From a virus: a stretch of DNA of 23,918 bases. Position 1 is the first letter of the stretch. Each line of letters opens with the position of its first letter. Under the pieces are notes generated by a model. It ran no database searches. It saw only the letters and a list, made by a program, of their open reading frames with translations, and was not told where the DNA came from. A program made the position numbers and the translations under genes. Where the stretch lies: positions 1 to 23,918 of the IMG/VR virus record IMGVR_UViG_3300020156_000077; one strand, given 5' to 3'. Below, piece by piece: positions 15,875 to 23,918 of the stretch.

Positions 15875-18800
15875 ATGGCCAATGAACACGAAAGCGGTTT
15901 GCCCTACGCCTTCGACACCGCGACCGGGAAGCAGTCTTGGCAACAGGTCATCCCGTATGGACGCAAGCCTTTCGTCCAAGGCCGCGATATCATCGACCTC
16001 CAGACGATCATCCGCGAGCGCCAAAACCGCATTGCCAACCTCGTGGCCAGCGATGGTGACCGGGTGGAGCAGGCCATTGCTGTGGTCAACGTGCTGGACC
16101 AGACGGTTACGCTGACCGCAGGCAAAATCTATGTGGCCGGGGATGTGTTCCCGGTTGGTGAGGCGACCATCAATGACGTGCCCATGGAAGGGTATGTTGA
16201 GCTAGGCGTCTGGCTGACCAAATACTGGCTGACCAGCGAGGATGAGCCTATCCTGCTGGGGTTGGTTCCCGGATCGGCCGCAGAAGGGGAGCAAGGCGCG
16301 GCGCGCGAGGTTGTTACCATCGCTTGGGGCCTCTCGACCGACGACGAAGATGGCCGGTTTTACAAGGTCTATGTGCTTCAGGATGGCACCATCCTCGATC
16401 AGAAGCCGCCTCCGGTATTGGAAGGCATCATGCAGGGCTTGCGCCTGTATGACAAGCCATTCGGCCACTATATCGTCTCCGGCAATACCGTCTCCACGCT
16501 GGGCGTCGAGGCCGGCAAGCGCATTTTCTCAATCGAGGAAGGTGAGGCCAATATCTCCGGAAACAAGATCATCCGGAACGCCTCTCTCCGCTTCGCTGAG
16601 ACGGAAAGCTGGGAAGTCGCCGCTGTGCCCGGCGAAACCCATGAGTATGTCGGCGGCGCCAGCCAGACGATCACGCTGGATCAATTCCCCATTGCGGAAA
16701 TCTCCTCCATTCTGCTGACCAAGGAGAAGACTGTCACCCTCACGCGCGGCGCGCTCGCCAATGGCGCGGATGGATTGCCTGACAATTCCGTGATCGAAAT
16801 CATCAGCGTGGTACAGGGCGGCACGACATATGATCAGGGTGCGGGCAATTCCTATGTGCGATCTGGCAACACCGTAGATTGGGCTGGACCCGGCCCGGAG
16901 CCAGCGATTGGCTCCAGCTACAATGTCACATACCGCTATCGCGCCAGCGTGGAGCCAGTCGAGTTCGATCAGACGACCATGACGGTGGAAGGCGGAGCGG
17001 CAGGTGGCGATATCATCGTGGCCTACACCTACAAGCTGCCGCGCATCGATATCCTTGGCTTGCTGCCCAGCGGCGCGCCAGTCTATGTGCGCGGCATCGC
17101 GGCGCGGGAAAATCCCGTTATGCCCCAGCCGCCCAGCAATGTGCTGCCGCTGTGCGAAATCCACAACAACTGGATGGGCACTCCGCAGATTATCGCGGAT
17201 GGCGTCAGGACTGGCGTTCGCATGTTCAATTGGGCGGAGATTTCCCGGCGCTTCAATGTGCTGGAGCGCCATTCGCGCCTGATCCAGAGCGAGCGCCTGT
17301 TGAGCCGTGTTGATCGGCGCGATCCGCTCGCGAAGAAGAACATGTTTGTCGATGCCTTCATGGATGATGAGTTCCGTGACCCTGGCCTTGCGCAGACTGC
17401 CGCGCTGGGCAATGGCATTATGCAACTGCCCATCGAAGTCACATTCTATGACGGCCTCCTGACTGAGCCGGTCATGCTCGATTATGTCGAGGATGTGATC
17501 ACCAAGCAGGAGCTTGCCACTGGGTGCGAGAAGATCAACCCATATCAGAATTTCCTGCCCATGCCCGGCGCGCTGACGCTGACGCCTGCGGCAGACTTCT
17601 GGACCGAACGCCAGACCCAGTGGGCTTCCCCGGTAACGGTCGAGTTCCAGCAAGGCATCCAGTGGGGCTGGGGCGGGCCGCTAGTCACCGAAAGCAGCAC
17701 TTCCCAGCAGTTGGGCACCCAGACCAGCCAACTGGCCTTCCTGCGCCAGCGCAGTGTGGCTTTCAAGATCGGCGGTTTCTTCCCCGGCGAAACCCTCGTG
17801 TCATTGACTTTCGACGGTATCAGCGTCATGCCCGGAGGCTTGCCAGCGGCAAATGCCCAAGGCGAAATCGTCGGCGCGTTCACCATCCCGGCGAATGTGC
17901 CGGCCGGCACCAAGATTGTGCGGGCGAAGGGCGCTGTCACAGAAGCGGAAGCGCTGTTCACTGGGCAGGGAACGCTGGCCATCGACATCATGCGCCGCGT
18001 GACGACGATCAACCGTTGGATGGCTCCGCCTGCGACCGAAAGCGGAAGCTCTGGCGATACGTGGCAAGGCTCTGGCGCTTCCGATCCGCAGGCCCAGATT
18101 TTCGTGCCCACCACTCCGCGCCAACTGCTTGGCGTCGATTTCAAGCTGTGCCACATTGGCGACGAAAACAACGCCATTCTGGTTCATCAGGTGGCGGTGG
18201 AGAATGGTATTCCGACCACCAGCTTGGAGGCGGAGGCCTTTGTGTCGATGATCGGCGCCACCGAGGGCTGGAAGTCGGCGCGATACAACATGCCAACACT
18301 GACTTCGAGCGACCAAGATCACGCCTTTGTGATCAAGACCGACGACGCTGACCATTCGATTGCGATTGCCACTCTGGGCGATTTCGATGCCACAGCGCAG
18401 AAGGCAGTCACCCAGCACCCCTACCCGATTGGCCCTCGCCTGTCTTCGGTCAATGCCCGCACTTGGACGCCCCATCAGGACAGCGCGGTGACGTTCCGGC
18501 TGATCGCGGCGCGCTATCCGGTCACGACAAAGACAATTGACATTGGCGACTTCGATTTGGTCGATTGTTCGGATATGCAAATCCGGGCCATCACAGAACT
18601 GCCCAACTCCGCCTGTCAAGTCGTCTTCAATGTCGAGCGCAGCAATGGCATGGTGTATCGGCTCCTTCCCTATCAGGTGCTGAGCCTGAATGAATGGATC
18701 ACCGAGACTGTCCATGTGACGGCAACCCTCACCGGAACTGAGTTCCTTTCTCCTATCCTTTTTGCCCCGGTGGAGTTCATCGCCGGCAAGATCGGGACGG

Positions 18801-19093
18801 AAGGCACCTATATCACGCGGGCCATGTCTATTGCTGGTGCTGATCAGATTTCGGCCTATCTCAAGCTTGCCCTGCCGGCCGGTTCTACCGTAACAATGCG
18901 GTACAAGATCGATGCGGACGCTTGGACAGCCTTGCCATTGGCGGCCACAGAGCCTTCGACCGATCCGCTTTGGGTTGAGCAAAACCACCGGAAGACTGGA
19001 ATTGCTGGTGCGGACATGCGAATTGAAATCAAGCTCACTGGCGGCGCTGCCGCAAGGCCTCGCGCCAGCGACTTCGGATTGGCGGTGATGTAA
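15875..19093 (+). CDS. large tail protein (DUF4815)
   Basis: This 1072-residue protein has the opening typical of DUF4815 phage tail proteins: LPYAFDTATGKQSWQQVIPY and RPFVQGRDIIDLQTIIRERQ-like text (KPFVQGRDIIDLQTI). It is followed by a beta-rich N-terminal domain, a helical middle around residues 440-540 (NWAEISRRFNVLERHSRLIQ) and a long beta-rich C-terminal part. Such proteins are large baseplate-associated fibre or adsorption proteins. The ribosome binding site is weak (GGAAC). Its stop overlaps the next start (TAATG). Confidence 0.8.
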   Translation: MANEHESGLPYAFDTATGKQSWQQVIPYGRKPFVQGRDIIDLQTIIRERQNRIANLVASDGDRVEQAIAVVNVLDQTVTLTAGKIYVAGDVFPVGEATINDVPMEGYVELGVWLTKYWLTSEDEPILLGLVPGSAAEGEQGAAREVVTIAWGLSTDDEDGRFYKVYVLQDGTILDQKPPPVLEGIMQGLRLYDKPFGHYIVSGNTVSTLGVEAGKRIFSIEEGEANISGNKIIRNASLRFAETESWEVAAVPGETHEYVGGASQTITLDQFPIAEISSILLTKEKTVTLTRGALANGADGLPDNSVIEIISVVQGGTTYDQGAGNSYVRSGNTVDWAGPGPEPAIGSSYNVTYRYRASVEPVEFDQTTMTVEGGAAGGDIIVAYTYKLPRIDILGLLPSGAPVYVRGIAARENPVMPQPPSNVLPLCEIHNNWMGTPQIIADGVRTGVRMFNWAEISRRFNVLERHSRLIQSERLLSRVDRRDPLAKKNMFVDAFMDDEFRDPGLAQTAALGNGIMQLPIEVTFYDGLLTEPVMLDYVEDVITKQELATGCEKINPYQNFLPMPGALTLTPAADFWTERQTQWASPVTVEFQQGIQWGWGGPLVTESSTSQQLGTQTSQLAFLRQRSVAFKIGGFFPGETLVSLTFDGISVMPGGLPAANAQGEIVGAFTIPANVPAGTKIVRAKGAVTEAEALFTGQGTLAIDIMRRVTTINRWMAPPATESGSSGDTWQGSGASDPQAQIFVPTTPRQLLGVDFKLCHIGDENNAILVHQVAVENGIPTTSLEAEAFVSMIGATEGWKSARYNMPTLTSSDQDHAFVIKTDDADHSIAIATLGDFDATAQKAVTQHPYPIGPRLSSVNARTWTPHQDSAVTFRLIAARYPVTTKTIDIGDFDLVDCSDMQIRAITELPNSACQVVFNVERSNGMVYRLLPYQVLSLNEWITETVHVTATLTGTEFLSPILFAPVEFIAGKIGTEGTYITRAMSIAGADQISAYLKLALPAGSTVTMRYKIDADAWTALPLAATEPSTDPLWVEQNHRKTGIAGADMRIEIKLTGGAAARPRASDFGLAVM

Positions 19094-21374: not shown

Positions 21375-21477
21375 TCCGGCGCTGGCCCAACCCATTGCGC
21401 CGCTCGATAAGATCAAGTAAATCTTAATTTGAAATCGGCCTTTGGGTTAGGCCAGTCAGCAGAAAGGGACGTTGGCG
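21375..21477 (+). promoter_or_regulatory. leader before the sheath gene with two hairpins
   Basis: The gap of 103 bases contains a TAAGAT/ATCTTA hairpin (21408-21413 with 21421-21426, seven-base loop) and a GGCCT/AGGCC hairpin (21437-21441 with 21449-21453). Neither is followed by a clear U-run. The region is AT-rich in the middle. No convincing promoter boxes were found. It is the longest gap in the tail half and may carry the start of a sheath/tube transcript. Confidence 0.25.
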
Positions 21478-22749
21478 ATGGCCGCTCCGAAAATCGGTTT
21501 CATGTTCGACACTCAGGAACTCGAAAGCCTTGTGCCTTCGAAGGCTGAAATGTCGGTTATTGGCGCGGTGGTGACCGCCCCGGCCAAGCAGGCAGGCATC
21601 GAATACAACACGCTGTATTCGATCAACTCCAGCGATGCGGAGTTTTACACCTCGCTGGGCGCCACCGGCACCGCTCAGGCGACGATCCGCGCCGCTGCCA
21701 AGCAGTTGGGCCAAATGCAGCGCTCCACGCGCATGGTCATCAATGTGGTGGAGGAAGGCACTGGCGCCGATGCCGCCGCCAAGGCGCTCGCAACCATCGC
21801 CAATATCAAGGGCGATCCGGTGTTGAAGACCGGCGTTCACGCTTTCAAGGGCGCTGCCCAGAAGGTCAACATCATCCCGCGCATTCTGATTGCGCCCGGC
21901 TATACCCACCAGCGCGTGGCAGACGCGGCCAATGCGGCTTGCACTGAGCTTGCCCTTGTGGCTGAGACGCTGCTGGCGGTCTGCCCAGTCGCTGGCCCAT
22001 CGACCACCAAGCAGGCGGCGCTGGACTGGCGCGAGACGCTGGCAAGCAAGCGCCTCATCCCAACTGATGGCGATTTCCTCGTCATGGACACCGATGGCGA
22101 CACCATCACCGAGCCCAATGACGCCTATATCGCTGGCCTCATCAACCGCGTCGATGAGCTTCATGGCGGCATGCCGTTCCATTCGGCCGGCAACCGGGAA
22201 GTCTTCGGCGTTCTGGGGCCATCCCGTATCACCGACTTTTCCCTGACCGATGCCGACACCTTCGGCGGGGAACTGCTGGAGAATGATATTGGCATCATCC
22301 TTCGCGGTGAAGGCGGCGACGATTTTGCGCTGGCTGAAGGCGGCACCCAGTATCTGGGCGTCAGCACCGCGTCCAATGAAAGCCTCTGGAAGTATTACAA
22401 TCAGGTGCGAGGACGCGACTTCATCCACCTGACCATGCTGCGGACGCTGCGTGAGCTTCTGGCCCGCTACAGCCTTTCGAGCCGGTTGGTCCAGACCTAT
22501 GTCAACACCATCCGGCAAATCCTCGCCGGCCTCGCCGCAGATGAACTCATCTATCGCGATTATCAGGTCCAGTTCACGAAGGCGGAAAACTCCTCCGATG
22601 AACTGCGCGATGGTCAGATCACCGTGCGGATGGCGGTGGAGGAGCCGGCGCCATTCCTTCGCGGCGTGATCAAGTCCACCCGGTACGAGTTCGCGGTGAA
22701 CAACTTCATCAGCCAGCTGGAAGCCCAGATCAACACCATTGCCATCTAA
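21478..22749 (+). CDS. tail sheath protein
   Basis: This 423-residue protein is the contractile sheath subunit, like P2 FI (396 residues). The N-terminal part has VVTAPAKQAG, and VRRITLA-type text is replaced by IRAAAKQLGQMQRSTRMVIN. Middle segments PRILIAPGYTHQRVADAANA and later QVRGRDFIHLTMLRTLREL, then YQVQFTKAENSSDELRDGQI, are family-typical. AAAGGGA at 21463-21469 is a good ribosome binding site. A TTG two codons upstream is in frame, but ATG 21478 is better spaced. It assembles around the tube and contracts on infection. Confidence 0.92.
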   Translation: MAAPKIGFMFDTQELESLVPSKAEMSVIGAVVTAPAKQAGIEYNTLYSINSSDAEFYTSLGATGTAQATIRAAAKQLGQMQRSTRMVINVVEEGTGADAAAKALATIANIKGDPVLKTGVHAFKGAAQKVNIIPRILIAPGYTHQRVADAANAACTELALVAETLLAVCPVAGPSTTKQAALDWRETLASKRLIPTDGDFLVMDTDGDTITEPNDAYIAGLINRVDELHGGMPFHSAGNREVFGVLGPSRITDFSLTDADTFGGELLENDIGIILRGEGGDDFALAEGGTQYLGVSTASNESLWKYYNQVRGRDFIHLTMLRTLRELLARYSLSSRLVQTYVNTIRQILAGLAADELIYRDYQVQFTKAENSSDELRDGQITVRMAVEEPAPFLRGVIKSTRYEFAVNNFISQLEAQINTIAI

Positions 22750-22780: not shown

Positions 22781-23311
22781 ATGGCCGCAGATTTCAAGGT
22801 CATCACCGGCGCTAACCTCTTTTGCGACGAAGACCCGGATGAGAGCAATCATCTGTCGCTCGATGAGGTTGGCCTTTCCGACATCACCCGCGTGATGGAA
22901 GAACACCGGCCCGGTGGCGGCTTCATGGCGCTCGAAGTCGATATGAACATGATGGAAGCGCTGACCATCCCCTTCACCCTCCGTGGTGTCGCGGAAGGGA
23001 TGATGGCCCGCGTCGGCTATGGCGATGATGTCATCCACGCCTATACCATCTTCAAGGAAGTGCGCGATGTTCGCACCAATGGCAAGGAGCGCCTAACCTG
23101 TGTCGCTCGCGGCCAGCTGGCGAGCGTTGCCCACGACGCCTACAACAAGCGCGGGATGGCTGGCGCCAATTTCGAAATCCGTGGCATCCAGTCCTATTTT
23201 CTCCAGATCGGTGATCGGGTCATCTATGACTTCGACTTCTTCGCCAATCGCCGGATCGTGCTGGGCGAGAACCAGCAGGCCGCATCCAACGCCATCCTTG
23301 GGATCGTCTAG
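22781..23311 (+). CDS. major tail tube protein
   Basis: This 176-residue protein corresponds to P2 FII (172 residues). Its order after the sheath is as in P2. Features include GGGFMALEVDMNMMEALTIP, TCVARGQLASVAHDAYN and a C-terminal DRVIYDFDFFANRRIVLGEN. The protein stacks in rings to form the inner tube through which DNA passes. GAAGGA at 22766-22771 is a good ribosome binding site nine bases before ATG. Confidence 0.92.
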   Translation: MAADFKVITGANLFCDEDPDESNHLSLDEVGLSDITRVMEEHRPGGGFMALEVDMNMMEALTIPFTLRGVAEGMMARVGYGDDVIHAYTIFKEVRDVRTNGKERLTCVARGQLASVAHDAYNKRGMAGANFEIRGIQSYFLQIGDRVIYDFDFFANRRIVLGENQQAASNAILGIV

Positions 23312-23313
23312 TC

Positions 23314-23733
23314 ATGGCACTCGAAACCGTTCAGGACATTGAACGGGCTTTTGGAGTTCCGGCGAAGGAAGCGGCTCCGGCCGCTTCTTCCATTTCCAGC
23401 CCCTCCGCTGCCCAATCAACCTCCACCGAAGGCTTCCGCTTCATCAGCGAACGCCCGACCAAGACAATTCCGCTCCAATACCCATTTGCTCTGGGTGCCA
23501 ATGAATACCGGGAATACACCTTGCGCCGGCTAACTGCTGAGCAGGTGGCTGAGGTTGGCCAAGAGCTTCGCCGCACTGGTGAAATGGCTTCGCTCTATAG
23601 CGCCATTTGCGGATTGCCCTTCCTCGCTTGCAAGAATATGGACGCTGATGACGCGGAGGTTCTGGCGAAAGAGGCTCTGGGTTTTATGCCTGCCAGTCTA
23701 AAAGCGTTCGTGGGGCAAACCAACAACCTTTAG
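23314..23733 (+). CDS. tail assembly chaperone (P2 gpE-like), unshifted product
   Basis: This 139-residue protein begins two bases after the tube gene. It has a low-complexity Ser/Ala region (about residues 18-40), then TIPLQYPFALGANEYREYTL and RRLTAEQVAEVGQELRR, as in the gpE / gp41 tail assembly chaperone family. Such chaperones coat the tape measure protein during tail assembly. The slippery heptamer G GGT TTT at residues about 122-124 lies near its end, so it is probably the shorter of two products. Confidence 0.8.
   Translation: MALETVQDIERAFGVPAKEAAPAASSISSPSAAQSTSTEGFRFISERPTKTIPLQYPFALGANEYREYTLRRLTAEQVAEVGQELRRTGEMASLYSAICGLPFLACKNMDADDAEVLAKEALGFMPASLKAFVGQTNNL
23679..23685 (+). 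promoter_or_regulatory. -1 programmed ribosomal frameshift site
   Basis: GGGTTTT at 23679-23685 is read as (ct)G GGT TTT in the frame of the chaperone gene, exactly fitting the X XXY YYZ slippery pattern. A -1 shift here enters a frame that is open from 23652 to 23915. This is the known location and direction of the shift in P2 E/E' and lambda G/GT. No stimulatory structure was worked out downstream. Confidence 0.75.
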
Positions 23734-23918
23734 GGCTGGCCGATATCGTCGGCATTTACAGTCAGGCGCTCAGGGCCTTTTTCGAGACGGCCGATCAGCG
23801 TAATATCGCGGTGGCCAAGCTCCGAGGCGAAGCGCCCTCGCTCATCGAGACTTGGCCCCCAGCTAAGGTCCACCGCATCTGGTTGGCCTATCTCGAAAGC
23901 GTGAGCGACAATGGCTGA
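23685..23918 (+). CDS. tail assembly chaperone extension (-1 frame, E' or T-like)
   Basis: After the shift, translation would continue for 77 codons to a TGA at 23916-23918, giving a product of about 201 residues. The extension includes LGLADIVGIYSQALRAFFET and PPAKVHRIWLAYLESV. The frame contains no ATG, and its first GTG (about 38 codons from the end) has no clear ribosome binding site, so independent translation is unlikely. In known phages this longer form recruits tube protein to the tape measure. The family call rests on position and the slip site. Confidence 0.75.
   Translation, partial: YACQSKSVRGANQQPLGLADIVGIYSQALRAFFETADQRNIAVAKLRGEAPSLIETWPPAKVHRIWLAYLESVSDNG
23911..23918 (+). 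CDS. start of a further gene, probably tape measure (partial)
   Basis: ATGGCTGA at 23911-23918 overlaps the stop of the frameshift extension and would begin a new frame (Met-Ala) that runs off the window. In P2-type and lambda-type tails the tape measure gene follows here. Only two codons are visible, so this rests on context alone. Confidence 0.35.

Follow-up and report, generated by a model that had tools for sequence, protein, structure and literature searches.

The window analysed here is an entire virus record, IMGVR_UViG_3300020156_000077, of 23,918 bases, and the sheath, tube, and chaperone genes described below, with the elements inside the chaperone region, all lie on its plus strand. 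Its 3' end carries a run of tail genes. A tail sheath gene of the P2 FI type (21472–22749) is identified by PHROG_23 (tail sheath, E = 5e-35) and by tblastn matches to the sheaths of P2-like phages; a Pfam search with this gene gave no match. The next gene (22781–23311) encodes a tail tube protein of the P2 FII type (PF04985 Phage_tube, E = 2.6e-18) and adjoins the tail assembly chaperone (TAC) gene on its 5' side, as in the P2 order FI-FII-E-E'-T. Elsewhere in the tail module, positions 15875–19093 encode a 1072-aa protein of unknown function with matches to DUF4815 (PF16075, E = 1.9e-148) and PHROG_877.

The TAC gene itself (23314–23733) encodes an unshifted product of 139 aa, an analogue of P2 gpE and lambda gpG. 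It scores 26.1 bits against PF10109 (Phage_TAC_7, 'E, or 41 or 14'), narrowly above the cut-off of 25, and also matches PHROG_166 (tail protein, E = 1.1e-6). The gene is in frame 1 and ends with TAG at 23731–23733. In the -1 frame, two consecutive TGA codons (23646–23651) are followed by an open stretch that runs from 23652 to a TGA at 23916–23918, in which we looked for ATG and found none. Translation shows both frames open across 23652–23733. The record stops with this TGA, at position 23918, so the tape-measure gene expected downstream is out of view; it lies 3' of the TAC region in L002/L004, one of the two nearest relatives, and in most relatives.

Within the overlap, 17 codons before the TAC stop, lies GGGTTTT (23679–23685), which the TAC frame reads as G GGT TTT. 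A -1 shift here, at G123, would add 77 residues from the -1 frame extension, the E'- or T-like part (23685–23918), to give a predicted fusion of 201 aa. These readings bear out an earlier note on this DNA, which had placed GGGTTTT in the chaperone frame, described the -1 frame as open from 23652 to the TGA at 23916 without any ATG, and given the fusion 201 residues. The arrangement is that of the P2 E/E'–lambda G/GT type: a chaperone as first product, identified by both PF10109 and PHROG_166, an in-frame slippery heptamer near its end, and an overlap in the -1 register that, in the window, has no initiation signals of its own.

Judged from the window alone, the heptamer and the open frame are suggestive but short of proof. 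The chance that 88 codons stay open at 58% GC is approximately 0.045, and the chance of any canonical heptamer in the overlap is 0.084 (codon shuffle, 26 overlap codons). The other ORFs of the window contain three canonical in-frame heptamers in 5177 codon positions, one of which is also GGGTTTT.

The nearest relatives are two contigs, L002/L004 (one contig under two handles, with a tube protein 60% identical to that of the window) and L005. At the exact codon of the window heptamer, L004 has GGATTTT and L005 has AAATTTT, and ATGCC follows in all three. The extension is conserved too: 42 of 74 residues are identical between the window and L004, and 36 of 74 between the window and L005. In the -1 frame, differences from both relatives cluster at third codon positions, and pN is well below pS (0.30 vs 0.81 for L004; 0.33 vs 0.72 for L005), with pS near saturation and any dN/dS therefore only approximate. 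At the level of sequence, then, the extension evolves as a protein, with selection acting on the -1 frame. Further scans for clade members yielded these two contigs again and, beyond them, only loci that are more distant; with the window, three members of the immediate clade were found.

In L004, the -1 frame stop is followed within a few bases by the start of a tape-measure ORF. In L005 (6689–7260), approximately 570 bases separate that stop from the likely tape-measure ORF, and a small gene has perhaps been inserted there.

Searches with the TAC or tube protein alone found almost no homologues, and a sheath profile search found 80 viral and four genome loci. We could place a TAC in 69 of these, giving 43 loci with the gene order sheath-tube-TAC that are non-redundant at 85% identity; a few loci beyond the reach of automatic placement were either assigned manually or omitted. 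In 41 of the 43, a -1 frame overlaps the 3' end of the TAC gene and runs beyond its stop, and where a downstream tape-measure ORF was found, the -1 frame usually closes near its start. A canonical in-frame X_XXY_YYZ heptamer (Y being A or T; last 35 codons of the overlap) is present in 36 of these 41 relatives, whereas codon shuffles predict 1.87 and 200,000 simulated draws yielded nine at most. In the two other phases of the same 41 loci, a heptamer occurs in only two and one. GGATTTT of L004 was scored as one of the five misses. Throughout the family, the heptamer falls on one shared chaperone motif, usually N-F-[MLF]-P or P-[FL]-L. The earlier note had proposed checking homologues for conservation of the heptamer and the -1 frame: at the family level the frame and the slip site are conserved, but the exact heptamer varies even in the nearest relatives.

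P2 provides the reference for this family, as its genome (NC_001895, 19430–19857) has E and E+E' annotated with a -1 frameshift site. A profile of the family's fusions aligns with P2 E+E' over 140 columns at a probability of 97.4%, placing the GF of the window on the GF of the annotated P2 site (GGT TTT TTG). The three-sequence clade profile does not match P2 by itself; against the remaining family members it gives a match at 98.3%. Shared with P2 are the gene order through the chaperone, a -1 shift near the chaperone end, and the GF motif; the fusion is 142 aa in P2 and 201 aa in the window. The claim that location and direction resemble P2 E/E' and lambda G/GT is therefore supported, since position, direction, overlap, and conservation all agree with P2 E/E'.

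We consider it very probable (roughly 93%) that the TAC gene of the window is decoded by a programmed -1 frameshift of the P2 E/E' kind, one gene giving a 139-aa chaperone and a predicted 201-aa fusion. The sequence comparisons above establish that the frames are open, that the slip site aligns, and that selection acts on the -1 frame; that slippage takes place, how efficient it is, and what the fusion does are inferred.

A reading without frameshifting would make the -1 frame an independently initiated small gene. Possible starts do exist: the window has an in-frame GTG at 23811, which leaves 35 codons, and ATG, GTG or TTG occurs somewhere in the -1 frame of 37 of the 41 relatives. However, the window's GTG lacks a Shine-Dalgarno-like word, and a start there would remove half of the conserved extension, and in L004 no start codon leaves at least 15 codons there. 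Only four of the 41 relatives have a start with a Shine-Dalgarno-like word, and a separate gene leaves the slip heptamer in 36 of them unexplained. We therefore regard this reading as very unlikely, even though it fares best among the alternatives.

Slightly less probable again is that the -1 frame is entered elsewhere in the overlap or through slippage during transcription. Transcriptional slippage is conceivable in relatives with TTTTTT runs, but the T run in the window is only four long. As for other sites, the overlap offers only the non-canonical TCTAAAA as an alternative, and the candidate common to the window, L004, and L005 is NNNTTTT.

The remaining alternatives are refuted by comparison. 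The odds from the window alone (approximately 0.045 for the open frame and 0.08 for the heptamer) would allow both an open frame and a heptamer to arise by chance in intergenic sequence at the contig end, but frame relation, slip position, and extension all repeat in independent contigs, with pN of the extension far below pS. A one-base sequencing or assembly mistake splitting a single gene could likewise join the two frames, but independent assemblies show the same -1 relation in 41 of 43 representatives, and P2 has it too, annotated there as a -1 frameshift.

Under the programmed -1 frameshift, most ribosomes would terminate at the TAG at 23731–23733 and release the 139-aa chaperone. In a minority, the tRNA-Gly on GGT and the tRNA-Phe on TTT would move back one base onto GGG TTT, and these ribosomes would continue in the -1 frame to the TGA at 23916, producing the 201-aa chaperone-extension fusion. 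If the parallel with lambda G/GT and P2 E/E+E' holds, the chaperone part may bind the tape measure and the extension may recruit tail tube subunits; the fusion would be made at a fixed low ratio, and neither product would be retained in the virion.

Two possible stimulators flank the heptamer, and neither is established. The first is a weak candidate, a predicted hairpin at 23692–23740 (-22.1 kcal/mol, z = -3.4, none of 200 shuffles as good), which begins 6 nt 3' of the heptamer, a usual spacing, and covers the TAC stop. Folding of L004 and L005 revealed no counterpart in either, and the family mean z is -0.76, so we rejected a conserved downstream RNA structure. The second is GGAGG at 23655–23659, a possible internal Shine-Dalgarno stimulator at the same distance from the heptamer in the window, L004, and L005. 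Such stimulators usually lie 10–14 nt upstream of the slip site. This one is 19 nt off and is also accounted for by the conserved codons GCG GAG G.., so it too was rejected.

The clade differs from P2 in the register of its slip site. P2 is reported to slip on T_TTT_TTG, or T6G (PMC3931495), within C GGT TTT TTG. The window reads G GGT TTT ATG: the codon matching P2's TTG is ATG, and the sole canonical heptamer is G_GGT_TTT, one codon upstream. A codon listing showed no P2-type T_TTT_TTG in the chaperone frame of the window, L004, or L005, so this clade's small twist is to have kept only the upstream heptamer. What is conserved in the clade is N_NNT_TTT followed by ATGCC, not the exact heptamer: the X bases are GGG, GGA, and AAA, and P-site re-pairing on GGATTTT of L004 is imperfect.

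Across the family, the listing shows two registers at one position. P2 and many relatives have NNN TTT TTG (or TTC), giving T_TTT_TTG; the window clade has NNT TTT ATG, giving N_NNT_TTT; and another group, which shares the window's register, has CCT TTN and hence C_CCT_TTN. Some loci, such as L038 and L072 (GGGTTTTTTG), contain sites in both registers, which makes loss of the T6 site with the upstream heptamer kept a simple candidate path of evolution. We tentatively propose, while thinking it somewhat less likely than not, that the clade lost the P2-type T_TTT_TTG when the third codon became ATG and came to frameshift one codon farther upstream, at N_NNT_TTT. In that case the A-site TTT would be the main determinant of the shift, the stimulator would differ between phages (e.g., the hairpin at 23692–23740), and the GGGTTTTTTG relatives would represent the intermediate state. 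The aligned set suggests that a slip site can shift its register by one codon with both overlapping frames retained.

Lambda has a non-contractile tail and the slip sequence GGGAAAG, unlike the window. The likeness to lambda G/GT lies in the probable role, the expected place before the tape measure, and the -1 direction (PMC5009743). It is well known that lambda and P2 use such frameshifts and that these are widely conserved (PMC5009743; PMC3931495). Other systems provide established precedents for GGGTTTT and GGATTTT as shift heptamers: with mammalian ribosomes G_GGU_UUU ranks among the shiftiest, and G_GAU_UUU is the site of pea enation mosaic virus (PMC5009743).

GGGTTTT has also been proposed as a TAC shift site before, in gp16/gp16.1 of Burkholderia phage PhiE067. 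Going by the published description (PMC7266877), the heptamer is the same as in the window, and the predicted shift is at G127 with a 204-aa product, compared with G123 and 201 aa. GGGTTTT is found as well in L038, L072, L104 (prophage-like, without T6), and L106 (with T6). The earlier note had called the window site a distinct example. It does differ from P2's TTTTTTG, but the term is an overstatement because of the PhiE067 proposal, as described there, and these other loci. The site is a member of the known E/E'–G/GT class, in which GGGTTTT is less usual though not new.

These results support a fusion protein that is unannotated in the window phage and many relatives, including several public phage records with the sheath-tube-TAC order. 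Microcystis phage Mae-JY30 (PP438422; L003, 4540–5201) has sheath and tube proteins homologous to those of the window, and its open -1 frame ends just 5' of the tape measure; its in-frame slip sequence is CCCTTTG, compared with GGGTTTT in the window. In this record and in those of POA1180 (L092, 5244–5794), AcaML1 (L094, 4859–5250), and Vibrio MAR (L095, 5352–5842), the chaperone-position gene is annotated and the fusion is not, and all four have an open -1 frame with an in-frame X_XXY_YYZ or T-run heptamer. The extension alone matched no Pfam or PHROG family.

Some loci depart from the common pattern. Pseudomonas phage ZRG1 (L093, 5069–5469) has an open -1 extension and no canonical heptamer in the overlap. 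In Aurantimonas phage AmM-1 (L091, 5057–5533), a 158-aa gene at the TAC position abuts the tape measure with no -1 extension; possibly the two parts have fused, or the extension has been lost. L040 (3765–4148) and L042 (5344–5724) have no -1 overlap and seem to represent a related lineage lacking the -1 extension, and in L042 the final base of the TAC stop is also the first of the tape-measure ORF.
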